Positions 4,431 to 46,745 of a stretch of 64,000 nucleotides of DNA are shown here, in pieces. Under the pieces are notes generated by a model, which saw only the letters and a list, made by a program, of their open reading frames with translations, was not told where the DNA came from and did not search any database. The position numbers and the translations under genes were made by a program. Positions within the stretch are counted from its first letter, which is position 1. The number at the start of each line of letters is the position of its first letter. The DNA lies in NCBI GenBank assembly GCA_021234155.1, contig JAJEKV010000111.1:1370968-1434967 (forward strand), in the 5' to 3' direction. The DNA comes from Isoetes taiwanensis. Lineage: Eukaryota > Streptophyta > Lycopodiopsida > Isoetales > Isoetaceae.

Positions 4431-4435
4431 TACAC

Positions 4436-6824
4436 CCCGGGCCCTGATGGGTTTCCCCCTGAATTTTACATTGCATTCTGGGATACTATCAAATCTGATT
4501 TTGTGCACATGGTTCAGGGATTCTGGAATTCAAATCATCTTCACCCTGCCATATCTGCTGGCTTGATCTCTCTCATTCCCAAATCTGATGATCTCAAACA
4601 ATTCTCGGATTGGAGACCTATATCTTTAACTAATTCCTCCTACAAAGTATGTGCCAAAATCATTGCAAATAGAATTAAAGGGCATCTGCAAGATATCATT
4701 AGTCCTTGCCAATCTGCTTTCCTTCCAAACAGATATATCTTGGATAATTACATTGCTGCCATGGAAGGCCTTCACTGGAATAACACACTAATCAAGGCTG
4801 TATCCTTCTTAAACTTGATTTCTCAAAGGCCTTTGATTCTGTGCATTGGGAATTCATTGATTTTGCTCTATGGAAAATTGGCTTCTCAAATAAAATCATC
4901 CAGCTAATTCTTGGTCTTAATTCCAGATCCCAATCGTCTGTTCTTATTAATGGTTCTCCAGGTACATTCTTTCCTTTAGCTAGAGAAGTGAGGCAAGGCT
5001 GTCCTTTAGCCCCCTACATCTTTATTGCTGTCACTAAAATTTTGACTCGAGTCATTAATCATCAACAGCAAATTGGAAATATCAAGGGTTTAATTTTACC
5101 TGACAATACTTCCAACATGAATATTCTCGCTGATGACTCATTCAGTTTTCTTAAAAATGATCTTCATAACATTAGGAATTACTTAAGTATTATTAGTTGC
5201 TTTGTTGCAGCTTCTGGCATTAACCTGAATCTGGACAAGTGTTCTATCATGGGAAAAACAAATCAACAATCTGTTCTTGGGATTAAATGTTTTCAGACTT
5301 CTCAAGCTATCAATTTGTTGGGAATGCTACTATCTTTAGACTCTAATATTAAGGGTCTCTGGTCTCCTATTCTTTCTCGGATCAAAAGAAAGTTAAATAA
5401 TTATGGTAACTGTTTATCTCTTGCTGGTAGATCCATAATTGCAAATGCTGTGATTGCAAGCTCTCACATCTACTTTTCCTCTGTTTTGCTTGCTCCTAAA
5501 AATGTCCATCTTCAGCTTGAGAGAATTGTCAGGAATTTTATCTGGGGAAAAAAATATTTGGTTAGCTGGAATCACATCACAAGATCTAAATCTCATGGGG
5601 GTCTTGGTTGCAAGAATTTATTTTTGCAAGGAGTGGCTTTAGCTGGCAAGCATGTCTGGAGAGCAATTTTTCATAAAGATAATCCAGCCTCTGTATTCAT
5701 TAAGTACTGGTTTCAAAATGGTGGTATTAAAGGGCATCCCTCTATCAGTCATCAACTTCCCTCCTCTATTTTCTTTGGTATTAATCCAGCTAAAAATATC
5801 TCCCCTCTCATGAGAAATTTGGTATTAGCTTGGAACAGGATCTCAAATTTCATGACACACAATAATCCAGATCAATTCCATTTGACTACATCTCTATTCT
5901 GGAATCCTATCTTATCCAAAGAGAATGACATCCCTCTTGCTATCAATCATCCCAAGATCTATAAAAAATGGTCTCTGTATGGATTTACTTCAATTGGGGA
6001 TCTTAGAATAGATGACAGATGGATCTCGTGGACTGCTCTCAAAAGGAAAATTGGTGAAACCTCTTCTGATAGGAGCCTCTTCAAGCATTTAAAAGCCAAA
6101 TTATTTTCTATCAATATTAACATTTTGAATTCTAATATTGATTGGTCTTGTAAGGGGAAATACATTTATAAAGTTTCCATGATTTATAAAATGTTAGCTT
6201 ACAACAATACTCCTTCAAAAGCTAAAATCTACTGGAGCCTAAATGATGAGGAAGTTTATAGAGTCCACAGGAACACTTGGTTATCCTACTGCCCTCCAAA
6301 AGTTTTTATTTCATCTGGTTTAGCCAACAAAAGCTTATCCAATTTGGAGAGCATTGCAAAGCATTCCATCTAGATTGAAGCATGGCCTTAATCCTATTTC
6401 TGATAATTGTCCTCTTAGATGCAATTGTCATATTTTCCAATGTCCTAAATTAGAATCTCTCTGGATTTGGTGTCAAAATGTCTTATCCATCAACAAGCCA
6501 AATAATTTGATTGATCTTCGGATGAATAATGACAAGTTTGTTAATACCTTATTCTTCACTGTTATATGGAATATATGGAAGCACAGGAATAGATGCATTC
6601 ATGGAGGTCATGCTATTTCTATCTGTTGGATTAAAGTCAATATTATGCATGACCTGCAAACATCTGCAACTGCTCACAGGATTCAAAATGAGGAAAACAG
6701 TTATGACAACAAGTGGAATTACATTGGTTCATTTTGTGGTCAATATAAATTATTTAATTTGTATTGTTCTCAGGCACATACTAATTTATTTTCTGATGTT
6801 GATGCTAGAGTACCTGAGGTTTAG
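4436..6824 (+). pseudogene. L1 ORF2 reverse transcriptase, frameshifted
   Basis: The order of reverse-transcriptase motifs is clear: LIPKSDDLKQFSDWRPISL, SAFLPNRYILDN, FSKAFDSVHWEF (motif A), REVRQGCPLAPYIF (motif B) and NILADDSFSF (motif C). The usual (Y/F)ADD is here LADD. The C-terminal part has SRLKHGLNPISDNCPL..., the zf-RVT-like segment of plant LINEs, followed by IWNIWKHRNRCIH. The frame changes near 4808 (between finger motifs and motif A) and near 6360. With the missing endonuclease this copy is dead. Confidence 0.8.
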
Positions 6825-8879: not shown

Positions 8880-10259
8880 AAAACTATACTTATAGACTAA
8901 AATTAACATGAAAAATTTCTATGGAACTGATTCTTGAGTGCATGCATGAATTTGGTATCAATGTCATTAATGTCTTCTTCTTCCAAGTTATGAGTCTTGC
9001 TACTTTGTATTATTCACCTTTCTTCTTAAGCTTTTTGCTCAAACATATGGGTAGAATCACTAAATATAAATTTGTCCTTTAAAATAATCATGATGGTGCA
9101 CTGTACATCTAAGTGGAGAGAAAGGCGCTGGGTCTGCCTTAGCTAAGAAACTAAGGTTCATGACAGAAAAAGAAAAACTAAGGTTCATGACAGAAAAAGG
9201 TCTTCTATGCAAACGTTGTTTGCTACTATGGAAAAATGTAGATGTCTTGTGTCTTTATATCAAAGATAAAAAACCCTTAAGACACATCTTGTACAAGAAA
9301 ATCCTATTCCATTTGTATGTTGTATGGCTAATGTGGGGCATATACAATGTAGAGAAGATTCAAAATAGCTATGTTGTTGAAATGTGGTCAACATGTTGAT
9401 GTGTTTGGTCTTATCTTGTGCCACCTCAAATTTTGCTGACACATACTCTGGCTACAGGTCTAAATTAAACTAGTCTAGATAATTTCAACAGTTGGGCTTA
9501 GCCAACTTGCCGTTATATCGCATTAAAGGCATATGCCTAGTTTCAATAATGGGAAGGGGAAATGCAATTTTTTAAAAGTAGAGATGAATTGGTAATTGCA
9601 AGATCAACAATCCCCTGCATAGATAGGAAAAAGCGTGGATAAGGAAATAATTTTGGGCATCCAACAGACCATCACCATAAGATCCGCTATTTGAATGAGC
9701 TGGAAGCAGGACCATAAATTATTATCATATATAATAACAATCAATAGATAGATAGTGCAGGCCAATGCATCCCTTTCGAGAGCAATGCCATGCAGACAGG
9801 CTGCATGATTATCCCTTTTTTATAAACAACATGAATTTACAATAATGTCTGGCAGGCGATCCATGAATTACGGACACGTGATGGCCAAGCTATAATGGCA
9901 CTGCTTTGGAGATGTTGGTTGAAAATAATGTTCTAAGAGCTAAAGGCCAAACAGGATTATACTGCTTTATGAATTTCTATTGATACAGTGCAGGGTATGA
10001 CAAGTTGCAACCCATGATGTGGTGCTCATAATGATCGCCTTATAAGGAATACTGATCTGTTCATTTTATAGGGACTTTTAAGTATCTTCGCAAATCTAAG
10101 GAAGATCATTATGTTATCATTCTGATTTGGGGAGAAGCTTTCTAGACAGCTAGCTTCTGTTAGGAACAGGGCACCAACTGTGGCTTTTAAAAAAATGACT
10201 CCCTTTGAATGAACAAGAACCACCAATTGTTGTGTAAAACAAATCGAGGGTACCATGGA
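8880..10259. other. Non-coding stretch with a short tandem duplication
   Basis: A roughly 26-bp phrase containing 'AAGGTTCATGACAGAAAAAG' is duplicated at about 9150-9200. The stretch 'CATTTTATAGGGACTTTTAA' (about 10064) recurs near 30342, so both places carry the same dispersed repeat. There is no gene. Confidence 0.4.
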
Positions 10260-10296
10260 GAATGTTAAGGAAGGAAGGAAGGAAGGTACTTTTATC

Positions 10297-10326
10297 GTCC
10301 ACAGAGACCAATCGGTCTATGGGGAC
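10297..10326 (-). other. LINE A 3'-terminal hairpin (covariant copy)
   Basis: In RNA sense: outer stem GUCC/GGAC, inner stem AGACC/GGUCU, loop GAUU. Relative to the copy at 7811 (AGGCC/GGCCU) the middle pair has changed on both sides, so pairing is preserved. Confidence 0.7.
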
Positions 10327-10499
10327 CCAGTACAAAAATGCAGCAAGCGGATTACTGCCCGGATTAAAAAAACCCCTCCCCGAAGGGTTTTCGAGGGAAA
10401 AACCGTGGCAGCAATCAGCCTGCTGACAAACTGTCCTAACATATAAAATGCAAGAACACCCAAATATATACAGTCATGCACCGCACCCGTAGTGCCTAA

Positions 10500-11417
10500 T
10501 CAGCGGGTCGCCAGGCGGGGGCAAAGGTGACCACGCAGGTCCAGTACCTCCTGAATGTACGACCCCAGGGCACGTACTGACGGTGTGTTCATCAGCAAAT
10601 GTAAGGGCAAGTCCGGCCGTACTAAGGGAGCGTATCTGGCCCGGATCTGACTGAACGCTGGGCAACTCTGGAAAGTGTGAGACTCATCCTCAATGGCACC
10701 CGTTTGACAGCACTGACAAAGCCTGTCCTGGCGGGGCTCCCCAATCCACCTGCCCGTCTCGATGCGAAGATGGTGGGCACCTGTGCGAATGGAGGCAATG
10801 AGTCTGCGCTTTTTCAGGGGCAGCTGGGAACGCAGGTAGAGCTGTGGCCCCCGGGCTAACATGGGGTTGATGTGCTCCTTGTAATGGGCCGTTTTGACCT
10901 GCTCTAGAGCGCCGGGGTCCTAGAGCTTGCCAAGGAAACAAGCATCTAAGTACTCCCGCAGGCTGTCACGATCGGCCGCTGTGTCCACCTACATGCATCC
11001 GTCCTGCACGTTCCATCTGGCGAACCACTGATCTCTCTTACCCCTCCAACAGGCCCTAAGCCGCTGCGGACCCATTGCCACAGTGTAAGCCAGGTGCGGG
11101 AGCCGAGCATCACCCATAGTAACCACTTTCTGAAAATAGACGATGTGTCTATCAAGGGCTGCCCGCTGAAGCGGCAAGAATCCAGTTTCCTGCAGCAGAA
11201 TCTGTTAGGGGACTGAAGGTTTCACCCCAAGTGCATGTGCCAAAAATGCCTTCTGCACCTGCTCCAAGTCATTCCAGGTCGCCAAAGAGACGACCGGGCC
11301 CCAAACCTCGACCCCGTACAGAAGGACAGGCTCGACCAGTGCCCGGAACAGATGTGACTGATGGCCCCAATCATAGAGCTCTGCCTGGTGACTGTTGTTC
11401 TGCATGGCATAAAGCGC
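10500..11417 (-). pseudogene. LINE A ORF2, C-terminal part
   Basis: Read on minus from the transposon junction: KALYAMQNNSHQ, then VEPVLLYGVEVWGPVV (the conserved 'LLYG.E.WGP' block after the reverse-transcriptase thumb), LPLKKRRLIASIRTGAHHL, and a zinc-binding cluster CQCC...IEDESHTFQSC. Interruptions include an in-frame stop near 10921 and frame changes near 10860 and 11200. The segment continues the protein encoded at 24142-26400 and belongs to the same retrotransposon. Confidence 0.75.
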
Positions 11418-11421
11418 TTTC

Positions 11422-11446
11422 AAGCATAATTTCATTAATTGTGGAC
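11422..11446 (+). repeat. Left terminal inverted repeat of the 12.7-kb transposon
   Basis: 25 bp beginning AAGCATAATTTCATTAATT and ending GTGGAC. It pairs with 24113-24137 and is preceded by the target duplication TTTC. Confidence 0.85.
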
Positions 11447-11815
11447 TTTGGCTGAGTCCATATGACTCCCAAATGGACCCGATTTTTTAGAATATAAGGG
11501 TTTTATTTAGTAGAATGATGCAAATTTTCGAAATGTGTGCAGGTAGGTGAGATGGCAGGCCTTGTATCTATTAAGCCAAAGAAGTGCCAACCGAGTTTGT
11601 GTCTCGCCCAAGCGCCTTTTGTAGACGTGGTCTCGCCACGCGGTAAGCATTCGCAAATCGATAGTGTAGATTCATAGTCGTGCCCCGTCGAGAATGGTCC
11701 CAACCAGTGCACGCCGATGGATTCACAATGAGCGAAATGCGAAGGCCATATCGCCGAGCCAATATTAGCTCATGCGAATCAGCTTCAGTTGAGGTGCGTA
11801 ACGAGATAAACCAAA

Positions 11816-12077
11816 ATGGCACGTAAGAAAAATGAGAAGCCAACTCGTGAAGCTCCTTCGTCGTGGAGAGTTGATGAAAGGATGGCGATGAGCCGGATCA
11901 CCTCAAAGGGTAGAGCTGGAAGGTCGCTTGATTTCCTTGAAACGCCATATTTACAGGGCAGAAGCTCTGAAGAGGTTGCTGAAAATGGAGGATGTTTGGC
12001 TGCACAACACTTTCCGGACGTTGTTTAAGAAGCTTTACATGAAGGAAAAGAGGCAGCGTGTGGCTTTTGGTAACTAA
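11816..12077 (+). pseudogene. Small basic protein gene near the transposon's left end, frameshifted
   Basis: An ATG at 11816 opens MARKKNEKPTREAPSS in one frame. Downstream of about 11905 a different frame carries strongly coding-like, Lys/Arg- and Leu-rich sequence (GRLISLKRHIYRAEALKRLL, then FKKLYMKEKRQRVAFGN) to TAA at 12075-12077. Read together they give a basic protein of about 87 residues broken by one indel at roughly 11880-11907. I do not recognise it. Position inside the inverted repeats makes it cargo of the transposon. Confidence 0.4.
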
Positions 12078-12747
12078 ACTCATCCTCGGCCTCCCTATCC
12101 GATGGGAGAATTGATGACCGGCCGGATCTCAGATCGCCGACAAGCCATAACAGAGTTCCAACCGGGGATCTAATTGCGGTGGAACTGGATATTGACTGAA
12201 ACGTCCATGTTTAATATTATCTATTATTATATATTATCTTTCTGTTCAACTATCTCTTTCGAGGCATGTTGTTTAGTTGATATTATTATCTACGTAATCC
12301 ATCCATGTACTCCATTCCTATATGAATAGAATGTTTTTGTCTACATCGAGAACAGCCCAATGACGTGCAATTTCTGAACAGTAATATCTTGTTTCATCGA
12401 GGCCTCCTCGATTTAAATTGGGCGCCCCCACTTTCCTTCCAGAGGAAATTGGGCGCCCATTTTCCTTTCCTTCGAATAGTCTCCCCGTAAACCGGGCGTC
12501 ACGACTTTGCCCTTCGATGCTTCCGCCGCCAGAAAATTGGGCGCCACCACTTTCCTTCTTGCGTGCAAAAGGAAAACGAAAAACGTGAGATCGAACCAAG
12601 ATAAGAACTCAAACATAACAACCGATTCATGGACAACACAAGTTACATCATCATATCATATAAAGTTATTAAATACATGAGTCATAGATTGTAATTATTG
12701 GTGATTCTATTAATCTCAAAAGCCTCGCGCTCCGGAACCCACACAAT

Positions 12748-13167
12748 ATGGATAGTAACATGATACTCGCCGGGGGAGTCTTTCTTTCGACCAAAGAGCT
12801 ATACCATACAGCCGTGGATCGAGAGAGATCCCTTTCAACTCGCAGCATAAAGATCGCCATAGGTCATAAGGCAAGTAAGGGTGTCAACATGGGGCCTCGT
12901 GAACATGGCGAGACATGGCAAATGAATGTGTTGTCTTCATCGAATGCAGCTATATTTATAGCCAAGGAATTATTGATGACTATCAGAGCAAAGATTATTG
13001 GTTGTATATACGGTGTACATCCAATAATCTTTATGCGCATAATACCTTCAATAATGATTGTAGGTATAAATATATCTCAAACCAATTTTGACCATCAAAT
13101 TTGGCCTTCGCTAGCCATGTGGTCTCATTCTCGATCCTCGAACGTGATTCCATCAACCGCAAGATGA
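12748..13167 (+). CDS. Hypothetical open frame in the transposon
   Basis: A 139-codon ATG-initiated frame containing a hydrophobic stretch (about residues 85-105, rich in Ile). I recognise no domain and codon evidence is weak. It could be non-coding. Confidence 0.2.
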   Translation: MDSNMILAGGVFLSTKELYHTAVDRERSLSTRSIKIAIGHKASKGVNMGPREHGETWQMNVLSSSNAAIFIAKELLMTIRAKIIGCIYGVHPIIFMRIIPSIMIVGINISQTNFDHQIWPSLAMWSHSRSSNVIPSTAR

Positions 13168-13648
13168 ATCACGAAAACTTCAAGCAAAGGCCGCTTGCGC
13201 GAGATACCCATGGAAGACCGATGACCACAATCGCTTCTAAATCCTCGCCATTATCCTGATCCCTTCGACGTTATCATCCATCTGATATGGAATAGAGAGC
13301 ATCAAATGTACATGCTAGAGAAGATCGCTGGGGTGCCTGGTGAAAATGACTCAGAAGAGTCCCCCTAAATGAACGCTTGTCATCTTGTTGTAATCAGACT
13401 GTAATCATCTATGAGATAAAGTATTAGTACAACTTGTCTTCTATATGTGCAACTTGTCCAACATGTCCCGTGAAATTGGGCGCCCGCCCACTTTGCAAAC
13501 TAGAATGGTTCCCCTTGAATGCTCATAGCGAATGATGCGCGAAATTGGGCGGCCGCCCAATTTCGCGTGGCTGTACAGGTATACCTTATACGGTTACCTG
13601 TTGCGCTAGAATGTACGCCAATAATTGACATCAATAATTTCTCACCAC

Positions 13649-13655
13649 TATAAAA
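13649..13655 (+). promoter_or_regulatory. TATA-box-like element
   Basis: TATAAAA in the context CCACTATAAAAGCAGC. The expected transcription start, about 30 bp downstream, falls on or just beside the ATG at 13680. Confidence 0.35.
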
Positions 13656-13679
13656 GCAGCTCCACTGCATTCATCTCTC

Positions 13680-13922
13680 ATGGCTTCCTTGCCGGATCAT
13701 CCGGAGAACATCCGATCCTTCAAGTGCTACTTGAATTACAACGATATTTGCCAGTGCTATATGACTGGTGTTAGTCTTGATCCATGGCTCCAGTCCAAAG
13801 CAGATGGACCTGCGAGTACTTGCAGGAAGCTCACTCGTGTTGTGGTCCACCTGTATTGGCTTCCTGATCAGCAGATCTTTGAGCTGAATGGCATCGGCTT
13901 GGCAGGCGTTGACGACGAGTGA
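13680..13922 (+). CDS. Hypothetical 80-residue protein in the transposon
   Basis: An intact ATG-to-TGA frame begins MASLPDHPENIRSFKCYLNY and ends GIGLAGVDDE. It has four cysteines, no obvious membrane segment and an acidic C-terminus. A good TATA box lies 31 bp upstream of the ATG, too close for a normal 5' leader. Either the leader is nearly absent or the match is fortuitous. No family recognised. It lies between two copies of the dyad motif (13542 and 14190). Confidence 0.4.
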   Translation: MASLPDHPENIRSFKCYLNYNDICQCYMTGVSLDPWLQSKADGPASTCRKLTRVVVHLYWLPDQQIFELNGIGLAGVDDE

Positions 13923-14396
13923 CTCTTTGTACACTCGGATATGTTAATGTACCTGACAAGGATATAATAATGTTGTAAGGATGTAATAAGCATAGTCAAT
14001 ATTATATAATGTAACGTACCTGAGTAATTCCTGAGGGTCTGCTCTTTGATCTCCACTGTTTCTGCACCTCCACTTCACTTCATGTTTGATGGCGCTTATT
14101 TTCGAAAGAAATTGGGCTCCAATTTATCATGGGAGGATAGCTTAAGTCAAATAAATTTATTAAAAGGCTATAGTTTCTAAGGGTTAACCAAATTCGGCGC
14201 CCGCCCAATTTGGTTAGCAAATTGGGCGGGCGCCCAATTTGGTTAGCAAAGTAAACTAGAGAAATTTAAGACAAGGAAATGAGTGCAACGTTATCATTTC
14301 TGAAAAAGAAGTATGAACAATTGTTATTAACATATTTCACGTATTTTCAAATCATAAATTGCTCATTCGTCTGGAGGCACATCTTCCGAATGATCC

Positions 14397-15218
14397 CTAC
14401 CGGTTCTTCATCATGTCAATTTGAGGTTGTTGTGCCGCCTCTTTGATCAATTCCATTCTTTGCCCCGCCTCATTCTCATCATCCGCACCCTGATTGTCTT
14501 CTGTGTTCGCCACCTCTTCCTCTACATCTTGACTGTTCATTGTGTTGGGGACCACATCCTCTCCATCCTGATTGTCCCCTTCCTGTGTTTCCATGACAAC
14601 GACAGACTCAGGCTCCCTAGCAACCTCTTCCTCGAACTTTGAGGTCGCCTCAATCATGTCCTGAGTATTCACCAGGTCCGGGCCCCGCCAAAGGCGTTGA
14701 TGTTGTTTTTCTTCTCCTAAATAGTTCCAAATCCCCGAGAGCCTAGGGCACGCCCTTTTGAGCTCTACTTGAATCGCGCCTTGTCCCTGTCTCGTAATTG
14801 ATTGCACTTCGCTTATGGTTGTAGACGAGACGGACAAGGTGTCTCGAAGGGTGAAGTCGAGGTCGAGGAACATTTTTGGAAGTAGAGGCCTTCTTCTTTC
14901 CCTCTTTTATCTTCTTAGTAGTGCCCGAGCTCTTGATTTTTTTCTCGCCTAACATGACATCGAAGTTGCTCGAATATCCGCATGCTTAATTTCCAGCTTC
15001 TCGCCCGTCTCAAAAGACAATGTTTTATAGCCCTCGCGACACCGCAGCTCGGCTAAAAGCACCACCGGAAAAGAAGTCGAGAACAAAGGCAACCTTCCAA
15101 AGATCAACTTCAGTACTAGATAGGTGCACGCCCTACTTTCCAACCGATTTTGCACCAAGATCCTCCCCACCGCTTTGCACCCTTTGTCACACCAAGGTCG
15201 ATACATGTACCAATAAGT
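14397..15218 (-). CDS. Unrecognised minus-strand transposon gene, 3' exon(s)
   Basis: From the splice acceptor at 15219-15220 the minus strand reads TYWYMYRPWCDKGCKAVGRI..., then changes frame and continues with IFGRLPLFSTSFPVVLLAEL and, in 14873-14397, a long acidic tail (EEEVAREPESVVV..., NTEDNQGADDENEAGQ) ending at a stop at 14397. The Asp/Glu-rich C-terminus is a clear compositional feature. I cannot name the family. Frame changes near 14940 suggest decay or a missed intron. It forms a series with the exons up to 18.26 kb. Confidence 0.4.
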
Positions 15219-15292
15219 CTGCAGGGAAAAACAAATGTTAGAAACATTGATAGTCAACAAGCAAATTGGGGCGCCCAATTTAAAATGCATAC
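15219..15292 (-). other. Intron of the minus-strand transposon gene, containing a dyad motif
   Basis: On minus: donor GTATGC at 15292, pyrimidine-rich acceptor TTTTTCCCTGCAG ending at 15219. It is 74 bp long and holds one copy of the AAATTGGG motif at 15263-15281. Confidence 0.5.
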
Positions 15293-15660
15293 CGCCGCAC
15301 ACACTTATGATCGTGCAAATTCTTTTCGATGTCCCGCTTTTTCTCGTAAATACTTGGGAAACTTAGCATATTGCTTTGATGGTCGGAATTGGCGAAGCAA
15401 ATATTTATTTCTCAGACTTGATGTGCGCGCCGGCTCTCGGCAACATACATTAGCAGGGACAAGACATTGCAACTCTCGAACTCTAGAGGTAGAAGCGCTT
15501 CGCCGGGGGGTCCCGGTAGGAACTAACCCAAACACGGCCGCCACCGCTTATTGTCTTCATGGCGGATAGGCACTCATTGAGGCGGTCCGGGGTAATAAAT
15601 ATAGCTACCCAAGAAAGCCGCTGGGTCCGCCATCATCGTCTTTGCTGGGTCAAGGAATTT
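15293..15660 (-). CDS. Unrecognised minus-strand transposon gene, internal exon
   Basis: The minus strand shows coding-like but frame-shifting sequence, including CNVLSLLMYVAESRRAHQV and FPSIYEKKRDIEKNLHDHKC, just upstream of the donor at 15292. The frame is interrupted more than once. No family recognised. Confidence 0.3.
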
Positions 15661-15813
15661 TTCATAATCTTCCTTTGGCCATTTCTTCATATATCCGGTC
15701 GCATCCAATGAAGCGGGCCGGTGTTTACCACGCCCACGCACAAACCTCGCGGACTAACGTGGAAACACTTGAAAGGTTTGCCACCCTCCTCAACGGCCCA
15801 AGAAGACATTCGC

Positions 15814-16348
15814 CTACTTTGTCAGAGGGACTCCGGAAAAGCTTTCCTTCTCCATCTCTTTAAGGCCCTTCGCCCATCCACCGATGCTACTTGCAAACAT
15901 AAGCATCAGATTCTCCGTGAATATGGGGTGAGCTTGCCTCAAGGCAGCCATGTCTTGAAAAGGAAGTTTCTTCACTTCCTTCATGTATCTGACAAGGGCC
16001 CGCTCCATTGTTCCAATCTTCTTCAGCTCTACGGCTCTGACTTTCATGGTGCGTCTCCCAGTATAATCCTTGCTTCCCTTCAGGAATGTGGTGTCATCCT
16101 TGATCTCCTTCAGCAGCCTTTGCAGATCTAGAGGATGCATGGACTTTAATGGGCGACAGGAATTATTGGTGAAAAGTCTAAGCCTATCCTTCACTTCAAT
16201 TTTTTCTCCCTTCTCGTCCTTCAACCGGTCTTCGTAGAATAACTGGGCAACTTCGGTGCACAAATTCCACGACTCGTCGTCAAGATATACAAAGTAGTCG
16301 TAGTCACGCATAGTTGACTTCTTAATCGTTCGCTACAGCTTTCCAATC
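15814..16348 (-). CDS. Unrecognised minus-strand transposon gene, 165-residue open segment
   Basis: After an acceptor at 16349-16350 the minus strand carries a 165-codon frame (16311-15814) starting MRDYDYFVYLDDESWNLC and containing HPLDLQRLLKEIKDDTTFLK and a basic, helix-rich C-terminal half. It is the longest uninterrupted piece of this gene. Codons just after the acceptor are in another frame with a stop, so a one-base shift near 16312 is likely. No domain recognised; neither transposase nor helicase motifs are seen. Confidence 0.45.
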
Positions 16349-16650
16349 CTGCATGACACACAAGGCACCAGATAAGGCGCATACACATCATCTTAATTTG
16401 CTTGCACTAGCTGACCCAAATTGGGCGCCCACCCAATTTCAGATCATCCGACACTCAGGTGAAACTGGGCGGGCGCCCAATTTCCCTGAACGGTTCCGAA
16501 ATTGGGCGAGCGCCCTATTTGCAGCCGTTCCGGGAAATTGGGCGCCCCCCAATTTGAAAAGAGTGCCAACAATCTGAAATTGGGCGGGCGCCCAATTTCG
16601 AACTAGTGGATAGCACGAACTGTCAGAAGTAATGGTGGTAGTGCACTTAC
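16349..16650 (-). other. 302-bp intron of the minus-strand transposon gene with five dyad motifs
   Basis: On minus: donor GTAAGTGC at 16650, acceptor CATGCAG ending at 16349. Between them lie dyad copies at 16418, 16462, 16499, 16535 and 16577, about 37-44 bp apart. Coding-like sequence resumes on both sides. Confidence 0.5.
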
Positions 16651-17270
16651 AGAATAAGCTCCACCGACGGAGTGCCCGCATTTTCCCTTCTTAGGCTTCC
16701 CATAGAATGCCCACTGGTTACGAAGCTGCTGAATTTCTTCGAAGAATACTTCTTCGTGTATAGTCTTCTTTGTTATGTCATTATTCTCCGGCCGACACCT
16801 AACGTGCTCGATTGTTTGTGGAGATTTCCGCCAGACTCGGCATTTCCTTTTGGCATAGAAAAGAATATCGGGTTACGCCAAGTGCTTCCTTTCAGAGGCC
16901 ATGCCAAAGCTTGTGTGACAAGCGGTTGAGCAACCGTGGTCGTATGGTTGCCATTTACAATCCAAGATTCTCATTTTGCGTGGTCCTCGCCTTTTCCACT
17001 TGATTGCTCGCCTGTCTCTCGGATCGACGGCCGCGACACATCGGCACGGGGAGGGTGCATCTGATGGCTGATAAACGATTCATAGAGAGTGTCCAAGTGC
17101 TCTGGACTTATGACCCTACAAGTCATATTTGTCGGGGCTTTATGCATCTTGAACACATCGACTTCAATCTCGGCCCACCCCCGAGGGTAGATTCTCTCCA
17201 CATGTGCTTGATGCTTGCTATGGCGCTCGTGACAACTCATGTTCCGCTCTCCCGAAAGTGACGCCGCCAC
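16651..17270 (-). CDS. Unrecognised minus-strand transposon gene, internal exons
   Basis: The 3' end of this segment reads EEIQQLRNQWAFYGKPKKGK up to the donor at 16650. The upstream part (17270-16971) reads RHSKHQAHVERIYPRGWAEI followed by VFKMHKAPTNMTCRVISPEH. Both look coding but are joined by stop-containing sequence (about 16800-16970), so an intron or decay lies between. No family recognised. Confidence 0.35.
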
Positions 17271-18263
17271 CAGATGGAGTGAACTTCACGATCTGCCGGC
17301 TACTCTCCCGTTCTTCAGATGAAGAAGCAGATAAGGACTCCCTCTCTGAACTATTTGGGCTCTGTGATAAGATGTCCCGCTTGCGCCTCTTGGACGGACC
17401 ACCTAAATCTTTTCCTCTCAAGGCTTTAGGGGTTCCTCTTCGGACGGCTGGTCCTCTTTCGCACTCACCTCGGGTGACCTTTGATATTCTCTTCATTCCA
17501 ATCGAATACAAGTTTAGTGGCAGCTTTACGGTGAATAGCCGTGAGCAGTGTGTCCTCGCCTTCTTTATCACCAGATCGGTCTCCATGGGCGCCCCCCCTG
17601 CGCTTGGCCGTCTCACCTTTCTTGTATCTAGACTTAAGCCACTTAGTATCGTATACTTTTAGGTTGGTTTTTGCCCCGATACTCGCGGAACGCTGCTTTC
17701 GACCTGTTCGCTTTTTGTGTTCTAATATCCACCGCCGACAAAGATAGTAGCCATCCAAGATATCAGCTTCTTGATTTGATGCCCGAAGCGCTCTAAACTT
17801 TCATATGAGTCTAGCGCCCATCCTTTCGAAAGCAAGAATGTGGGCTTTCCTTTATACTTGCGCCATCATACATGGCTCGTACTTAGAAAGTGGAACTTTA
17901 TAACGGACGAAAGTCCGATCTACGGTGTCTTCAACATCGATGAGGAAGTCATCCTTGTTCTCAGGCGAGACCTCCATGTCGATGACGATACCCGCCGAAT
18001 TCATTTTTCCTGCCCCTATCTTGCCAAAGAAAAGCAAAAGATCCTTGAGGTGGTTTGTCTGGGACCCAGGATGAATATTCCCTATCTCTATGCACCAGAC
18101 CCATTCCTCAGCAACCGTCAAAATTTCATGGGGCACAACCTGGATGCCAAAGAAATGCGTTCTTTCTCTTCTTCGTTCTTGCATCCTCTATTGCAATAGC
18201 CTCTCGCAAATTTGGGTCCGTCACCGAACCCGGCGACCGCTTTGTTCAAGGCCATATTAATTC
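17218..18263 (-). CDS. Unrecognised minus-strand transposon gene, 5' exons
   Basis: A likely acceptor (TTCTGCAG on minus, 18264-18269) opens sequence that includes KNEEEKERIS, then GIVIDMEVSPENKDDFLIDV and YKVPLSKYEP, then WILEHKKRTGRKQRSASIGA and a Ser/Arg/Lys-rich region with KALRGKDLGGPSKRRKRDIL (a nuclear-localisation-like basic cluster). Frames change at about 18120, 17850 and 17600. The product would be a nuclear protein of unknown role encoded opposite the transposase. Degraded. Confidence 0.35.
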
Positions 18264-18298
18264 CTGCAGAACGGAAAGTAGTGTTAGTACCTGGGAGA

Positions 18299-18600
18299 CT
18301 TGGGGCTGAAGAGACTGTTGTATGATGGAGGCAAATTGGGCGCCCGCCCAATTTGGCCGGATCCCTACGCACACCAAATTGGGCGCCCGCCAAATTTGCT
18401 CGGCTCAACTCATGGTGAGCCTTGGGGCTCAGGAGACAACTGCATCACAGGGGCTAAATTGGGCGTCCGCCCAATTTGGATTGTCCCTACACACACCAAA
18501 TTGGGCGCCCGCCCAATTTACTCGGCTGAACTCATGGTGAGCCTTGGGGCTGAGGAGACGATTGCATCATAGGGGCCAAATTGGGCGCCCGCCCAATTTA
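18299..18600. repeat. Tandem repeat, about 122 bp, carrying dyad motifs
   Basis: Phrases such as 'CTCATGGTGAGCCTTGGGGC' recur with a 122-bp period (CTCGGCT at 18399 and 18521). About 2.5 copies, each with two dyad motifs. Confidence 0.7.
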
Positions 18601-18814
18601 CTTATCCCTCACACCAAATTGGGCGGACGCCCAATTTGCCTATCCCCGGAGAGCACGACTTCCTAGGATGTTAGACTTGGGTAGAGTAAATTGGGCTTCA
18701 CCAATTTAGTCTCTACCAAGTCTACCTTCCAAGGAAGTCGTGTTCTCTCGATAGGCAAATTGGGCGCCCACTTTTTGGTGTGAGGGATAAGTAAATTGGG
18801 CGTCCGCCCACTTT
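18578..18814. repeat. Long imperfect inverted repeat (arms about 110 bp)
   Basis: The left arm (18578-18690) contains, in order, a dyad, TATCCCTCACACCAAA, a second dyad, TTTGCCTATC, GAGCACGACTTCCT and GACTTGG. The right arm (about 18705-18814) contains the same blocks in reverse complement: CCAAGTC, AAGGAAGTCGTG, GATAGGCAAA, TTGGTGTGAGGGATA and a final dyad. The centre near 18697 is itself a dyad-like element. It lies between the divergent gene sets of the transposon. Confidence 0.75.
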
Positions 18815-19888
18815 GGTATTAGGGAAAAAGTCCAATGTTTTGCAAAATGAAAGACCCTCAGGGAAGCAATTGGGTGCCCTATTCAGTTCTGCACACAGGT
18901 TTGCATTTGTGGGGACCAGTGAGGCATCTAGAAGATGTTAATATGTCAGCCACAGCCCAATTTCCGAGATGCAATAGCGGGATACTCAATCACTTTAAAG
19001 CCAAGTTTATATTAAGAAAGTAGTCCAAATTACCTTTGCCTCCCCGTGGGGGGGCGAGATGCCATCAACCGCTAAGATTCCTTGGTCGCATGTGGGTACC
19101 CAGCGATAGGACAATGAAGAGAGGAAGGCGCCAACAGGATGGCGACAAGCGGCCGAGAAACACAAGGCGCCAAGTGCGCGATCCGAAGCCGACAGCTGGT
19201 TCGGGAGTATAGTGCGGCGACATGATAGGGATGAGAATGACTTTCGTGGCTAACAAATATGAAGGCGACAGTGTTAAGCGGAGCACAAAGTGCCAAAGAA
19301 GCACAAAATTTTCTAAATCTGCAGTCGAGGAGAATGAGGGGCTTTTAAAGGGTTATGGACCTTTCATGACGCGAAGACAAGTGTCGTGCATGTAAGAGTT
19401 TGGCCTTTTGAAATAAAAATGGACCGTTGATGGGTTCGAGCGTGAGGAATTAATTGTGGACCTTAATAATAAGTGCATGGAGATTTTGAATTTCAAATCT
19501 GTCATTTATAGCCCGCCCAAAATTAATTCGAGTCATGCACGTGTCGCATGTGCTTTAGGCGGGAATTTGTGTTTAAAAGTTCCGGGCCGGACACATTACT
19601 TCGAAATTAGGTGGGACATTTAACTTTCAAAATAGGGGGGAAATTACATTCAAATTTTGGGGGGAATTCCTGTTTAAATGTAAATGCGCTTCAAACCTGT
19701 TGTTTTTCCTCGGCAAAGGCTTTGTTTGGCTACTATCTTTTTCTCGCAAGACGCAAAACATCTTCAAATGATTCATACTCATGGCCATGAGATCTCCAAA
19801 GGTTTGTGCTGCTCCACAGTTAAATTCGCCATACCTCGATGTGTAATTGCTGCAAATGTGATGTGAAGGGATGTAATCAATCACGCCT

Positions 19889-19991
19889 TTCCATTCACGG
19901 CTGTTCATTTGCACCTCTTCAAGCACGCCTGTTCATTCACACCTTTCCATTCACGCCTCTTCATTCACACCTCTTCATTCACGCCTTTTCG
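19889..19991. repeat. 14-bp tandem repeat
   Basis: About seven imperfect copies of CATTCAC(A/G)CCT(N)TT. Confidence 0.7.
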
Positions 19992-20263
19992 ATGGCGCCT
20001 GTTGATTTACTCCTCATCATTCACCTGGTTACTGTCACATTTACATAAACTCTAAGTTTCGATGCAGTCCGTCCTTTTCCTGAAATTGTTGTGCAGGAAT
20101 TGTGTGAGGGCTATTTTCTCCATTAACCCTTGTTTGTAGTCAGGCCCTTCCAATGCTCGATTGTATTTGTTTTGGTAGCTCAATGATAAATTCCAGTTAG
20201 TGTCTGCCTCCTTACTTCTTTTAGTGTCTGCCTCCTTCAGTTTCATCTACAGAAAGGGACCAA

Positions 20264-20840
20264 TTGTCCCTTTGTGTAGATGACCAAATAGGTGAAACTG
20301 GCCGGGTGGGCAAACTGTATCTCGAAAGTGTTTTCTCTTGGTGACAAACTAAATTGGGCGGGCGCCGAGTCTCTGCCTACTTCACAGCTCTTTAACCACC
20401 ACGAACAAATTGGGCGGGCGCCCAATTTGTGCGCGGATATGGCCTGTTCAGAGCGACAACCTTCTTTTGTACCCATTGTGAGACTGACTGCATCAATACT
20501 GCCCTTATATAAACGCCTCATTCGGTTCAAATTGGGCGGCCGCCCAATTTGCAACAAGGGGACAAATTGGGCGGTCGCCCAGATTGTCCCCTTGTGTAGA
20601 TGACCAGATAGGTGAAACTGTCCGGGTGGGCTAACTGTTATCTCGAATGTGTTTTCTCTTGGTGACAGCTAAATTGGGCGGGCGCCGAGTGTCTGCCTAC
20701 TTTACAGCTCTTCACACACCACGAACAAATTGGGCGGGCGCCCAATTTGTGCGCGGATATGGCCTGTTCAGAGCGAGAACCTTCTTTTCTACCCATTGTG
20801 AGACTTACTGCATCCAATACTAACCTTATACAAGGGGAAT
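20264..20840. repeat. 320-bp tandem duplication with dyad motifs
   Basis: TGTGTAGATGACC at 20273 and 20593 starts two copies that share TTTTCTCTTGGTGACA, a half dyad, a full dyad (20407, 20727) and GCGGATATGGCCTGTTCAGA. The first copy has two extra dyads (20529, 20564). The second copy is truncated near 20840. Confidence 0.75.
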
Positions 20841-21463
20841 CTAAAGACCTCATATGTTAAAAAGGGCACCCGCCCAATTTCATTGTCCTTGTAACCATTG
20901 AATGGGAATCCCCCAGTGTCATTTGCATTGCTTTCGTCCTTCCTTAGTCGATTTTAACACTACTGAAATCCTTTGTGCAAAGTTGTGTATCTCTTCCTTA
21001 ATGAACATCTAGTAGCAAAGGGAGTTGTGGGTCAAATGACACAATGCCACTTCAAGGAGATATCGAATGGACTAGTGAGCGTAGGTGTGGAGGAAGTGTT
21101 CAAGGCCACCATACCCTTCCTTGGCCAACCTGCATGCAAGCACAATAGCGTAGCCGGGGCTCATTCGCTCTCCTGGAGAAGTGAAGATGCTCGTGAGTCG
21201 CCTCGCTAATGACGCCCCCAAAGAAAAGACAAATGAAAAGAGGTGGGGAAGGAGACACAACCGCACGACAAGATATACCCTTCTTGAAAAGGATTGTGAG
21301 ATATGGCACTCATGCGACTCCATTATCGCCGGAAAGGGATTCATATCTTTCACCGCCCCGATGATGCGCTTTGTGACCAGTTTCCGGGTTTCAAGTTTGT
21401 GGGAGTATCTCAGAATCGGTTTCCCTCCCTTTCTCAACCAAACATCCGCTGCCGGTTGCTTGC

Positions 21464-23211
21464 TTGCAGGGCGAAGCCGGGATGCTCGTGAGATGGAGCA
21501 ATGACCTCGCCCTGTTAACGAGTAAAGGTCTCGAGATATTGACCGCAGCAAAGACCGCAGGGAAGCGATATTGTGTCCAAACCGGGGGAGCTCGTGAGCA
21601 TCGAAGCACCCAAATTATGAGAAACGACATTACACTTTTCATTCCCCGACAGCCCGTGAAGGTTGTTAGGCCACCAAAGCTTGCTCGCCTCACCACTGCA
21701 ATGCTATCCTCGCCATGTGGAGGACCTTGTGTTGCAAGAATAGGTGTTGCGTCGGGTTCTCTACCAATGAAGTTGTTAACATGCGAAAAGGAATTCCTAG
21801 CCATGAAATCAAGTGATAGGGTTACTTTTGTTTATGACATGTTCGCCAACAACATGAAAGGTCGAAGAGTGGGACGACCGGTGTCAGCAGGGGAATCTCG
21901 CTTGGCGAAAGGGCGTGGTACCTTGGTCTCGGGATCTCAAAGTCGGCCAGATCTGAAATGGAAGGCCCAATTTCTTGAGGGTGCACGCAAGGCCGAACAT
22001 GGTAACGGTGGGCACCTTGAAGCCTCGCCCCCTCGACGCTGGCATGTGAGGCCGTGTTTTCCATGTTCATGAAGGAGAACGGTGAATCCTTGCCCCACCG
22101 CAAAGCCAGAGAAACGAGGAGGGGATAAGAGAGAATGTCAGGAAGTTGCCTGCAATGTTTACGAAGTCCAAAGATTCTAGAAGAGGTTAATGCAGAGGTT
22201 GTGGCATTGACTGGCAAGAAGGTATCACCGACAGGTTTTCATAGAACGTGGAGGCGGAGCTTCCGGGACGTCAGTATCGCAAAGAAAATTGCATTCTCCA
22301 AATGCGATACATGTGAGGTGATCCGTAAGAAGTTACCGAAGACCAAAGATGAAGGAGAGAGGAGGATGTTGCATGATGAAAGAAGAGCGCATAGACTGGA
22401 GCAGGCCTCGTGTCGCGCACACGCATATTGGTCGTGGAGATTATACTCCCACGTATCCCTACCAATATCTTTGTATTATTCACGACAAAATGGATCAAGC
22501 CAAAACAATGATTCCAAAATTGCAACAACTGCGGAAGTCTCTCCGAGACTTGACAAGCTGAAAACAACATTGACCGGGTGCATTGACTCATGGTCATGGG
22601 AATGGATCCTATGGAAACTTTGCCCCTGGACTTATGGCCAGATGACTCTAACTTCCATGTAGGTTCTTTGAATAGCATCTTGAAGAGATTAGAGATGGGG
22701 CACGAGTATGCAGGAGGCCACCCGCCGCTGCCTCGAATCATCTGCTCAAAAATGGGTCTCCTCATTCACGAGACACAACGGCCTTGGAGTCAAAGTTGTC
22801 ACTATCCAATACCAAAGATACCGCTAATTTGCCACAGCACGGGGACCATCATTGAAGCCTCCTCCCAAGATACTTTATTTGCACCGGACAACGATCCGAC
22901 GTAACAAGAATAGGTATGTCTTCTCCTATCTTTCTTACCTAGTATATCTTGGTGTGTTTGAAGAGATTGAGCTAGGGTTCATGATGCCCTCACACACACA
23001 TGATGATATCGATGCCTTGTTTGGTAACTTCTCTACATCTTTAAAGAAGGCAGAGGTGCTCACAATGCCGAACCTCTTGTATGAATTCCACAAATGCAAC
23101 TTGAATACACCCGTGTCCTATGTTGTTGACAAAGTTCCGGATTGGAAGGGTTTTATAGAAGGCTACATACTAGATGGGGATGATAGATTGACAGTCATAC
23201 CACCCCTCTAA
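21464..23211 (+). pseudogene. DDE-type transposase of the 12.7-kb transposon, frameshifted
   Basis: Coding segments in changing frames read in order: EFLAMKSSDRVTFVYDMFAN; VSIAKKIAFSKCDTCEVIRK (zinc-ligand-like C..C); YLCIIHDKMDQAKTMIPKLQ; PDDSNFHVGSLNSILKRLE; LDN-like 'APDNDPT' next to NKNRYVFSYLSYLVYLGVFE; then MMPSHTHDDIDALFGNFSTS. The series D(K)MDQ ... DN..xNKNRYVF ... GHTH/SHTH-DID..FG matches the catalytic-core pattern I associate with proteins annotated DUF7869, transposase-like proteins common in non-seed plants, algae and animals. At least five frame changes (near 22340, 22560, 22650, 22895, 23200) make it non-functional. It would act on the 25-bp ends. Confidence 0.65.
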
Positions 23212-24051
23212 CTTTCAGATTCGCTATGAATGGTGATTGGCCACCATGTATTACAAAACTAGACCCACTTACCCGGATTGGTTGCCTGCTTTGGTGGAAT
23301 AAAGATGTGGAAAGAAAAAGAGGACGGAAGCCCATGATGCCAATTGATATCCTAAGCCGCTTCCTCCCAAGAAATCGGTGAAGGACCTTGGCCTCGCATG
23401 TAAACAAGATCCACAAGCATATATTGCATTGGGTTGCTTGTTCAACGCCTAACAAAGGTGCTCCGTAAACCGCCAACTACTCGGCACGCTTCACGGCCAC
23501 GATTGAATATTGGATGAAACTCCCCAAAGAACTTCGGGAACATCAGCCAGCGATCGAAGGCACTTATAATGACTTCCGCCACGCATTAGGCAAGCACACA
23601 AGCTCCACCTCATGTAGTCAGTAGTGGTGGAGCCAATTGTTACTATCACTCCTCCTTACGCCGGCCCCCGGAAGGACAAACCTGTGCACCAAATTCAACC
23701 CATACAAAGATTTGAAGAAAGGTATGTTTATTATGGCACGATGATGTGTTGTGCCCAACTTGGGTGGGCCTAGCTACCGAGGACCCACAAATGGATGATA
23801 AGAAGGAGAACTTTGAGACTATTCTCGTGACTTGGTGGGAGCCAATCCCAGCTGAGGAACCAAGTCTACCCACTAATTATGCCAATTGCTTGAAGAAGAG
23901 ATGGAGGCCAACGACCGCAAGTGACCGCATAGAAGTGGAGACTATCGACTACGCTTGGGAGCCATCAAACAAGAAGAAGATACCTAATACTATTAAGATA
24001 CCCGTGCATGCTGCTGAGGCATATGCAGCACTCATAGGGGATGTCAACTAG
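23212..24051 (+). pseudogene. Transposase C-terminal region and terminal open segment
   Basis: Beyond the DID block, coding-like but interrupted sequence (FAMNGDWPPCITKLDPLTRI in another frame) leads to a frame open from 23746 to a TAG at 24049-24051. This encodes ENFETILVTWWEPIPAEEPS and YAWEPSNKKKIPNTIKIPVH. It ends 62 bp before the right terminal repeat, as expected for the 3' end of a transposase gene. The exact relation to the core is unclear. Confidence 0.45.
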
Positions 24052-24112
24052 TGTATGAAAATGAGTCATTCATCCAAGTGTACTAAAAAAATGGTCCATA
24101 AATTCAGGTATT

Positions 24113-24137
24113 GTCCATAATTAATGAAATTGTGCTT
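24113..24137 (-). repeat. Right terminal inverted repeat of the 12.7-kb transposon
   Basis: Reverse complement begins AAGCACAATTTCATTAATT and ends ATGGAC, pairing with 11422-11446. It is followed by TTTC at 24138-24141. Confidence 0.85.
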
Positions 24138-24141
24138 TTTC

Positions 24142-26500
24142 CAGCCTGCTGTCACCCGCAAGCGGATAGACGCCTCCCAGCAGAGCGAGGAGGGGAACTC
24201 CACCCCTAGGTACTTGTAGGTGGGCGTGACGCCCACAGCCGTCCCCCGATATGTGAGTGCAGTGAGCATGGGGTGACGGAAGAGGATATGAGAACCACCC
24301 CCGGGTCTTGGCCGATTCACGCCAGCATGTCGTGAGCCCGACAAAATGTGTCTAGGGCATCCGTGTGAGACCGCATAGCTTCGGGGTGTGGGCCAGCAGC
24401 CAACATCGTCCGCATAGATGAGCCGGGCGGATGATCCGGTGCAAAAGATGTATGCCATCCCCCCATGCTCGCGAAGCCGGGGCTCTAACCGATCAATGTA
24501 GAGGCCAAAAGTGTTGGCGAGAGGGGGGCAACCCCGCCGGACCCGATACTACTACCGGTGAATGCTTGGTCCGTCGGGTCATCCCCGCCAAAACAACTCT
24601 CATACAACCCGTATATGGCATTCCTCGCATGTGCAGCGGAGCCCCAGTTGACGCAGCCTAGCCCACGCCTTTTCCCCGGGAACCGTATCAAAAGCCTTCG
24701 CTAAGTCCACAAAGCAAAGAATACAAGTCCCGCCGATGATTCCGGCCGCCTTCAATCGCCCGCAGTGTAAAGATATGGTCAATCGTTGAGTGGCGGGGTC
24801 TAAAGCCCAGCATGTGTGAGGGCTCGCACATCCGCTGCCTCCCGCCCAATCCGGTCAATCCGCCGAGAATGCCGCCCAACAGTTTGGCAAATCGAATCCG
24901 ACCATGATCGTCCTGGTGCATTGGCCTGACAATGTGGGTCGCCGCCTTTGTGAATGGGAACAACCCCGCTTGTGGTCCATTGTCGGGAGACCTTCCCCGC
25001 AATGCTCGCTGGAATGGTGGTAGTGAGGATCGGCACAAGCGGCCGCCCCGCCCATTTGAGTAACTCTTCGGCCGCATACCATCGAGGTCACCGCCTTCCC
25101 ATTAGCTAGCCGCTTCGCGGGCCCTCCTCAACATCCTCCTCCACGAGAACCAATGGGGGCCATCCCGTGGGGGTATGGGCGACGCGTCCCCTCGTGGGTC
25201 ATAGAGCCGCCGCAGTATTTCCCCCCCGCCGGTGTGATGTCCCCCGAGGCTGGGCTGGCCTTCAAGCACTCGCTAGCGAAAAGGTTCGAGGGATGAGTGT
25301 CCAAAGAGGGCGAACATCTCCCCTCGATGCACGGCAAGGTACCGCCGCCTTTGTCTCCTTCCGGATGGGCGCTGCATGCGGTGGTGGCTCGCAAGCGGGT
25401 ACTGGATCCATAATGTGGCGGGCTGAGCCGCCGCTATCTTTTACACTCGCATCAAACCATCGGGTCTGCGGGAATGTTGCTGACCCCGAAGCGGCGATGT
25501 GGGGGTCTGCCAAAGCACCCGGCCCGCTGCATCCCGTAATAGCGGTCGGTGGTTCATCTTTCCCCTAGTGTGGAGGGCCGCAGAATTACCGGGAGGGCGC
25601 CCATGAGCATCTCGGGCGTAGTCCCCCGCCACGCTCATAATCTAGCCTCAACCGAGGGACGGCGAGGGGTCGGCATAGTGGGGGTTGTGGCGGCTTGCCA
25701 AACCAGGTCCAAATAAAGTGAGAGGTGATCTGAATCGACCTCCTCATCCCGACCGCCTGTGCCCACCCTAAACGACCGACGAGATGCATATCTTGGCGCA
25801 ACCACGAGCACATAGTCCACCACACTAGACCCTCCCCCGATTGTCCCCTGCCCGCATGTGCACTTATGGTGAATCGGGCCACCGTGACATGTGCCATTGC
25901 AAATTATCAAGTCAAAAATACCACCTAGCAGAGCAACCGTCACCAAAGCGAAAGTGACCTCGGCAGTCATCCGATCCTCGTGGCGGGTTGTTTCTCAAGG
26001 GCGAAGCCGCAGGACATCGTCGGCCGAGGGGTCAAGTCTTATGGGCTGCTCTACTCCCCGTCCCGGCATTGAAATCTCCAAGAAGGACGACCCTACCCAA
26101 CTCGCCGGTGTCGCCAGATGTCATCATATAGATCGACATAAGGGTCCATCCTATCCGCATCGGGTGGCTGCGATAGAAGGTGCTCTCTCGCATGAGGGAA
26201 ATAACAAAGCCGTAAAAAGAGGGTTGCCACCGGTATTATGCACACGAACCCACAAGTACCGGTTGTGTCTGTCGTCTTCTCGGAGAGTAATCGAATGTGC
26301 CAAGGTTGTCCGGGTAGTAGCAAGCCACTCCACCATGACCCCTCCGCCCCGCATGTGCATTGAAGACCGACAAATGTTGGTAACCCTAAGAGATCAGTAG
26401 CCTCAGGGCTCCCGGATGCTCCCATGTCTCCATGAGAAAGATGAGATCCATATCGGCCGCCACGGAGTTCGACTGTCCCCCTTCTCGCCAAGGGAAGCCT
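24142..26500 (-). pseudogene. LINE A ORF2: AP-endonuclease and reverse transcriptase
   Basis: On minus the endonuclease gives LMETWEH near 26450 and GRVVLLGDFNAGTGS near 26085 (the GDFN motif of APE-type nucleases). Then come reverse-transcriptase blocks FRPRHSTIDHIFTLRAIEG (about 24810), CFVDLAKAFDTVPG (about 24705, motif A with catalytic D), a shortened motif B (APLSPTLL, about 24520), IYADDVG (24401-24420, motif C YADD) and YKYLGVEF (about 24210). Multiple frame changes and apparent deletions, so not functional. It continues across the transposon into 11417-10500. Confidence 0.75.
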
Positions 26501-26849
26501 CGACAATTCCATGAGACCACCCGAGGCACAATTCCTATTTGTCGCTAGGGATGGTATCTGCGCGCAACGAGTCGTGGGGGAGGACGGGAAGCGTAGGCCG
26601 AAAGTAAGAAGTAGATGGAGCGGAGGCAGCATGTGGAGCAGGAGTAGGAGCAGGAGAAGGGGGGGCCGTGGTAGGAGAAGCGTATGGAGGGCCACGCGTG
26701 TAGTTGCGGGTTGGGGCTGCGGGGGGTGCGGCAGCAGAGCGTGTTGTCGGAAAATGTGCATCCCGCCGAACCAATCCCTGCAGCACCCCGGTGGCGAATG
26801 CCTCGACCACGACAAGCTCACAATACATGGCCTCCCGCTGCACGCGGGT

Positions 26850-27831: not shown

Positions 27832-27847
27832 GGGATGCCGAATGTTA

Positions 27848-44665: not shown

Positions 44666-46692
<2,027 letters not shown>

Positions 46693-46705
46693 GTGAAGTG
46701 TATTA

Positions 46706-46739
46706 CGTCTTTTGGGAGGCCTCCCAGGCCTATAAGACG
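46706..46739 (-). other. LINE B2 3'-terminal hairpin
   Basis: CGUCU/AGACG outer stem, AGGCCU/AGGCCU inner stem, loop GGG (RNA sense). Confidence 0.65.
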
Positions 46740-46745
46740 ACATTA

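Follow-up and report, generated by a model that had tools for sequence, protein, structure and literature searches.

The stretch analyzed here, 64,000 nucleotides of the Isoetes taiwanensis genome (the window; contig JAJEKV010000111.1, positions 1,370,968 to 1,434,967), contains a 12.7-kb transposon with terminal inverted repeats (11422-24137), and the non-coding parts of this element carry about 30 copies of a 22-bp palindrome in which the arms are constant and the two central bases vary. We propose that the palindromes are bound by a sequence-specific protein dimer that the transposon itself encodes, most likely the product of its gene 2, and assign this interpretation a probability of roughly 0.55. 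A preliminary description of the sequence had offered three options for the palindromes, i.e., binding sites for the element's own protein, transcriptional insulators, or a parasitic micro-foldback. Of these, a dimeric DNA-binding protein of the element is the best supported, by the rigid spacing of the half-sites, the constancy of the arms around a free centre, the absence of sites from coding-like DNA and the uncompensated nature of changes in the arms, with insulators as a less probable alternative. Each 10-bp arm would be read by one subunit, with the 2-bp spacer setting the geometry of the dimer.

In the window, 11 copies have exact arms, AAATTGGGCG and CGCCCAATTT, with two central bases between them that read GG in four copies, CC in three, GC in two, and TC and GA in one copy each. 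The eleven perfect-arm copies and five central states of the preliminary description were thus recovered as written, the five states becoming three when the strands are collapsed. Allowing up to three mismatches, 22 sites were found between 13473 and 20880, compared to 0.01 expected from 100 dinucleotide shuffles. Eight shortened or decayed forms, chosen by eye from the list of half-sites (12415, 12446, 12534, 14109, 15263, 16535, 18688 and 18757), widen the range to 12415; with them, the count is about 30, similar to the 28 or so first reported. The half-site AAATTGGGCG occurs 39 times in the window (24 on the plus strand and 15 on the minus strand), always within 12415-20880, and a 9-base form of it is additionally present at 21965 and 42400. 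None of the 22 sites lies within the coding-like segments of the window, in keeping with the earlier observation that the copies avoid the longer coding segments.

The motif had also been described as occurring only inside this transposon. This is correct for the window, where all palindromes lie inside the element, but not for the genome: the genome-wide count proposed as a check returned 2,720 copies of the exact pattern in 1.66 Gb and 0 copies of the reversed-pattern control, so that the motif is not private to the window copy. When facing pairs of half-sites with gaps of 0-12 bases were counted, 2,720 of the 2,782 pairs had a gap of exactly 2 bp; such rigid 2-bp spacing around a variable centre would be expected from a protein dimer. 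Among 108 exact sites with distinct contexts, drawn from the loci fetched for analysis, the centre (strands collapsed) was CC in 78, GA in 9, AC in 9, AG in 7 and GC in 5, and the base adjoining the arm was G or C in 95 sites on the left and 91 on the right. Seven of eight further genomic sites, a small sample chosen among the first listed, adjoin genes of the same element family, and the same is true for all seven loci tested on the first two contigs listed. No element gene was found within 6 kb at the eighth sampled site (L053; G000:C32:149000-155000), which carries two exact palindromes plus 10 half-sites and is possibly a non-autonomous member. As a side observation, the palindrome is free of stop codons in all six frames (L047, 2565-3173), so that its arrays can read as long open reading frames (ORFs) of GARPI-, WAPAQF- and IGRPPNL-like repeats that may mislead gene prediction.

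We further compared the window with five 10-kb loci, two of subfamily B, two of C and one of D, giving six elements from four subfamilies. Over a 172-amino-acid exon of gene 2, identity to the window is 70% for B, 66% for C and 57% for D. A palindrome scan made without reference to the motif nevertheless returned mostly this motif, which accounted for 20 of 20 palindromes in L046, 28 of 29 in L047, 5 of 5 in L048, 5 of 7 in L049 and 8 of 8 in L050. With eight Markov shuffles of each sequence, the mean number of palindromes was between 0.4 and 1.6; since single shuffles of L048 reached 4, the count of 5 in that locus is not striking by itself. At up to three mismatches, 0 of 129 sites across the six elements fall in coding-like DNA, as delimited by tblastn with exons trimmed by eye. 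Three non-coding compartments are shared by all six elements, namely the interval between the starts of genes 2 and 3 (78 sites), the second intron of gene 2 (27 sites) and the gene 1 side (19 sites), and the remaining 5 sites lie in the next gene 2 intron, in three elements. The arms are constant across subfamilies A-D while the centre shifts, e.g., to AC/GT in 12 of the 16 sites of L050. Among the blastn alignments of more than 100 bases printed, none matched intron 2 or the interval between gene 2 and gene 3 from one subfamily to another.

Sites also stand in tandem units near 73, 67 and 52 bp. Arm identity in three L047 arrays is 1.00, 1.00 and 0.96, compared to 0.72, 0.65 and 0.64 for the adjoining 14-15 bp on each side, and in L046 arrays it is 1.00, 0.94 and 0.91, compared to 0.76, 0.73 and 0.42 for the adjoining bases, a comparison that somewhat favours the arms because the units were found by the motif. 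Helical phasing of the array spacing was considered and rejected: units of 73 and 52 bp fit whole turns, but those of 66-70, 60 and 80 bp do not.

Relatives were collected with the 172-amino-acid exon of the minus-strand gene 2 as the query, 150 being scored among 1,863 first-look candidates; gene 2 is a large family. Thirty loci were returned, one of them (L016) being the window itself, and 28 could be anchored at one gene 2 intron. Within this intron the palindromes line up in 17 collinear siblings, and 10 other siblings are rearranged; the site at 16418 has no more than one arm mismatch in 13 of the 17. Thus, in the one intron aligned, related copies keep the motif at the same positions, a behaviour that the preliminary description had proposed to look for. 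Across the 27 siblings, identity ignoring gaps is 0.873 for the palindromes, 0.795 for the spacer and 0.883 for the exon, with gap fractions of 0.115 for the palindromes and 0.080 for the spacer. CpG dinucleotides in ungapped cells of these 27 introns are retained in 124 of 152 cases in the palindromes, 86 of 189 in the spacer and 95 of 134 in the exon.

If a protein of the element binds the palindromes, the sequences put the odds slightly in favour of the gene 2 product as the binder, since it is the family's accessory gene product and has a seemingly chromatin-directed tail. Intact copies of gene 2 start with MARTKQTAR-x-PG, of which MARTKQTAR is the tail of histone H3. Among 12 gene 2 starts that were chosen by the downstream domain alone, with the tail unseen, seven have the exact MARTKQTAR, one reads MARTK*TAQ, one reads MAQTKQTAR and three have lost the tail; the seven exact copies differ synonymously in 7 of the 8 codons after the ATG. 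In a larger set of 13 starts, synonymous changes extend across all of codons 2-9; because this set was picked by the pattern MARTK[QS]TAR, the constancy of its amino acids is uninformative. The tail is MARTKSTARKPG in subfamily D, MARTKQTARMPG in C-like copies (L064 and L065) and a decayed MARTKSIAK in L048. An N-terminal ARTKQTAR is present on a non-histone protein in several subfamilies, as in an H3 mimic, and gene 2 is thus a putative one. SNAG-domain proteins have an N-terminal mimic of the H3 tail on a DNA-binding protein, and bind LSD1. Gene 2 is similar to these in its N-terminal mimic, and differs in that the match is exact over ARTKQTAR, the protein is transposon-borne and its DNA binding is putative.

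Frames other than gene 2 also begin with this tail. A degenerate MARTKQTAR pattern has 1,888 matches in the genome, a count that may include true H3 genes, and 0 matches for the reversed control. Of six sampled places (L071-L076, 100 bases each), none continues as histone H3, four are open for 33 codons, e.g., MARTKQTARKPRRSG, and two reach a stop. Given the H3 tail at the start of other non-histone frames, it is conceivable that transposons of this plant resort to H3-tail mimicry more widely. In the open literature, covered as titles and the starts of abstracts, we found, among the papers listed, no title on a transposon-encoded H3 tail or on H3 mimicry of this kind.

At the other end of the protein, the C-terminal exon of gene 2 resembles amino-methyltransferases around the S-adenosylmethionine motif (motif X/I region). 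It matched the phage families phrog_498 (E 0.008) and phrog_3008 (E 0.006), PF01555 (E 0.2) and RsrI (E 0.42, ranked below unrelated ClpB chains, which score better but over a different part). It further returned 57 weak phage records (E 0.3 to 10), 48 of them from Gordonia phages, and among the 15 listed 14 are annotated as methyltransferase or methylase and one is unannotated. With hhalign, comparison to three phage enzymes chosen through their tblastn match gave a probability of 91.7 and an E of 7.8e-7 over 59 columns. These methyltransferase-like signals are each weak alone, and they appear to agree with one another. Compared to the beta-class amino-methyltransferases of phages and bacteria such as RsrI, gene 2 aligns over the motif X/I region, but the catalytic DPPY-type motif, (D/N/S)PP(Y/F/W), was not seen in an alignment of four sequences, which has an invariant DP without the aromatic residue. 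The C-terminus of gene 2 looks like a degenerate amino-methyltransferase-like region. A ParB-like (ParB/Srx) domain, suggested from reading the protein by eye, was rejected after searches with Pfam, a Protein Data Bank profile and phage tblastn returned no ParB. Below the Pfam threshold, gene 2 matched bPH_9 (E 0.0014) and a NUP210 domain (E 0.0025), among others.

As for the effect of binding, anti-silencing is a possibility that we rate somewhat below even, by analogy with the VANC protein of Arabidopsis transposons. The sites would have multiplied as tandem units, the protein would coat the promoter interval between gene 2 and gene 3, the introns and the 3' flank, and the probable outcome would be local shielding of the element from host silencing, similar to that provided by VANC for VANDAL elements. 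The MARTKQTAR tail of gene 2 may then present, or titrate, binders of the histone H3 tail at the element. In published work, VANC motifs form tandem repeats located in introns and in upstream regions (PMC5735166), and the VANC protein is described as binding these motifs and inducing loss of DNA methylation (PMC5735166, PMC10398659). As described there for VANC/VANDAL21, a short motif is dense in the non-coding parts of one DNA-transposon family, in introns and upstream regions, and the family has accessory genes (PMC5735166, PMC10398659); the Isoetes palindromes have likewise spread as tandem repeats in non-coding DNA. The two systems differ in that the VANDAL motif is 9 bp long and has one orientation, whereas the Isoetes motif is a 22-bp palindrome of fixed spacing that keeps the same arms across subfamilies A-D and, unlike the VANDAL motif, does not change between families with its protein. 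The VANDAL transposase is that of a Mutator-like element (MULE), whereas the Isoetes element has a DUF7869 protein, and its accessory protein, unlike VANC, has an H3-like tail and a methyltransferase-like region, with no VANC-like domain according to Pfam. Over 20 ORF pieces, Pfam placed DUF7869 alone above the cut-off, and the sub-threshold matches were neither MULE- nor VANC-like. The element may plausibly work like VANC. That gene 2 is VANC is not supported: no domain resembling those of VANC or MULE proteins was found, and the arms remain the same from one subfamily to the next. The same coverage of titles and abstract starts returned no paper on DUF7869, and nothing relevant on a link of ParB or methyltransferases to transposons or on palindrome anti-silencing in Isoetes; the 13-base core of the motif, GGGCGCCCAATTT, had no occurrence in the open literature among the matches listed.

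In addition to the way in which the array units were found, several results weigh against binding of the palindromes by gene 2. No Pfam family is over the cut-off in gene 2, and no DNA-binding domain was recognised. Five of the 12 unselected gene 2 starts are without the exact tail (three lost, two altered), and the window copy is decayed as well, its start codon being degraded near 18255 and its tail lost. In the 17 collinear siblings, the identity of the palindromes (0.884) is just above that of the spacer (0.854) and about that of the exon (0.880), and gaps are more frequent in the palindromes (0.045) than in the spacer (0.028); this slight margin together with the additional gaps indicates that many sites are decaying in close siblings. 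Over the left 2 kb, L047 (B) is 90% like L048 (C); given this and the likeness of the block 12656-13370 described below, the gene 1-side sites are not independent between B and C. Finally, the binder could instead be a host protein or the product of gene 1 or gene 3.

Were gene 3, the probable transposase, to bind the palindromes, they would act like the subterminal repeats of En/Spm or hAT elements and aid synapsis or cutting. That one motif is shared element-wide and that the family contains gene 3 are consistent with such a role. En/Spm encodes the protein TNPA, which binds many subterminal copies of a short motif in the element. The abundance of a short motif is thus common to both, but the Isoetes palindromes are internal and fill introns, with 993 bp between the left end and the first (decayed) site and 3.3 kb between the last site and the right end. 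In addition, the genome has 9,903 first-look DUF7869 candidates (150 of them scored) compared to 1,863 for gene 2, in searches that differ in reach. We consider sites for the transposase unlikely, and give the same low weight to a transcription or insulator protein of the host, whose sites the element would have captured to drive or shield its genes. The concentration of 78 of the 129 sites between the starts of genes 2 and 3 would suit a host protein, but sites of a host factor would be expected at host genes too, and seven of the eight sampled genomic sites adjoin genes of the element.

Hairpins, either as intronic RNA structure or as cruciforms, would make pairing rather than sequence the property that matters, and the dyads are indeed perfect, some running past the arms (e.g., 13542). 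However, in 217 distinct sites with up to three mismatches, 199 changes at paired arm positions were uncompensated and 2 were compensated, which shows that the base sequence is constrained and argues strongly against RNA or cruciform pairing. The arms also keep the same sequence across subfamilies, and a 2-nt loop is poor for an RNA hairpin, so that we regard hairpins as highly improbable. Least probable of all is a parasitic miniature inverted-repeat transposable element (micro-MITE) or foldback inserted many times, or neutral tandem duplication alone: the tandem units and the 29-bp spacing with repeated flanks at 14190-14240 would fit such a spread, but the arms of arrayed sites are retained although their flanks have diverged, no site lies in coding-like DNA, and the positions shared by siblings in one intron, together with multiplication as tandem units, argue against repeated insertion. 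The sibling alignment of this intron, in which no empty sites with target duplications were seen, led us to reject the micro-MITE, and with it the micro-foldback of the preliminary description.

The element has terminal inverted repeats, a candidate target duplication and a DUF7869 protein, as for a DNA transposon of this type (Table 1). The DUF7869 match of gene 3 is to PF25273, with an E of 4.5e-25 in the window and 1.6e-31 in L049, and gene 3 is probably the transposase. The left ends of L046, L047, L048, L049, L050 and L056 match the 28-base query with 0-6 mismatches. The block 12656-13370, between genes 1 and 2, has a likeness of 75-82% in copies of subfamilies B and C, more than the exons compared between subfamilies; it is outside the coding set used, and may be a further gene or a recently exchanged stretch. 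Upstream of gene 3, a tandem array with a 14-bp period (TCATTCACGCCTTT-like) at 19877-20030 is unrelated to the palindrome. Minus-strand sequence like that of long interspersed nuclear elements (LINEs) flanks the transposon at about 10150-11417 and 24142-28000, according to translations read by eye, and the transposon seems to have inserted into it; more LINE-like reverse-transcriptase ORFs were read by eye at 4371-6370 and 44669-50935.

Table 1. Features of the transposon and its palindromes in the window (shortened or decayed palindromes in groups with intact ones are in brackets)
Feature	Position	Strand	Remarks
Candidate 4-bp target duplication TTTC	11418-11421 and 24138-24141		checked in window copy only
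Left terminal inverted repeat, 28 bp, imperfect	11422..11449	+	left-end matches in siblings
Gene 1 remnants, protein without assigned identity	11719..12278	+	tblastn with L047/L049 ORFs
Palindromes, three shortened/decayed: 12415, 12446, 12534	12415..12553	.	
Palindromes 13473, 13542, 14190, 14219	13473..14240	.	gene 1-gene 2 interval
Gene 2 exons	14421..18157	-	coding-like segments 14421-15218, 15298-16332, 16645-17204, 17224-18157
Palindromes 16418, 16462, 16499, (16535), 16577	16418..16598	.	gene 2 intron, alignable in siblings
Palindromes 18333, 18376, 18456, 18498, 18578, 18616, (18688), (18757), 18793	18333..18814	.	immediately upstream of gene 2 start
Palindromes 20351, 20407, 20529, 20564, 20671, 20727, 20859	20351..20880	.	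upstream of gene 3
Gene 3, DUF7869 protein, probable transposase	21274..23037	+	conserved domain in ORF 22828-23211
Right terminal inverted repeat	24110..24137	-	

Taking binding by the gene 2 product further, we tentatively propose an epigenetic shield, and rate it as doubtful rather than likely. An accessory protein derived from a retired DNA methyltransferase and equipped with an H3 tail would be loaded on the palindrome arrays at promoters and introns, where its tails would stand in for H3 (K4/K9-type) and either dock chromatin readers, writers or erasers or divert them as decoys. To our knowledge, VANC/VANDAL is the sole system in which a transposon uses motif arrays and its own protein against silencing. 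If the proposal is true, the Isoetes element would be a second transposon system of motif arrays and own protein that escapes silencing, in a different transposon class and in a lycophyte, with a binding site defined at 20 of its bases, 2,720 exact copies of that site occurring naturally and a direct effector hypothesis in the form of histone-tail mimicry.

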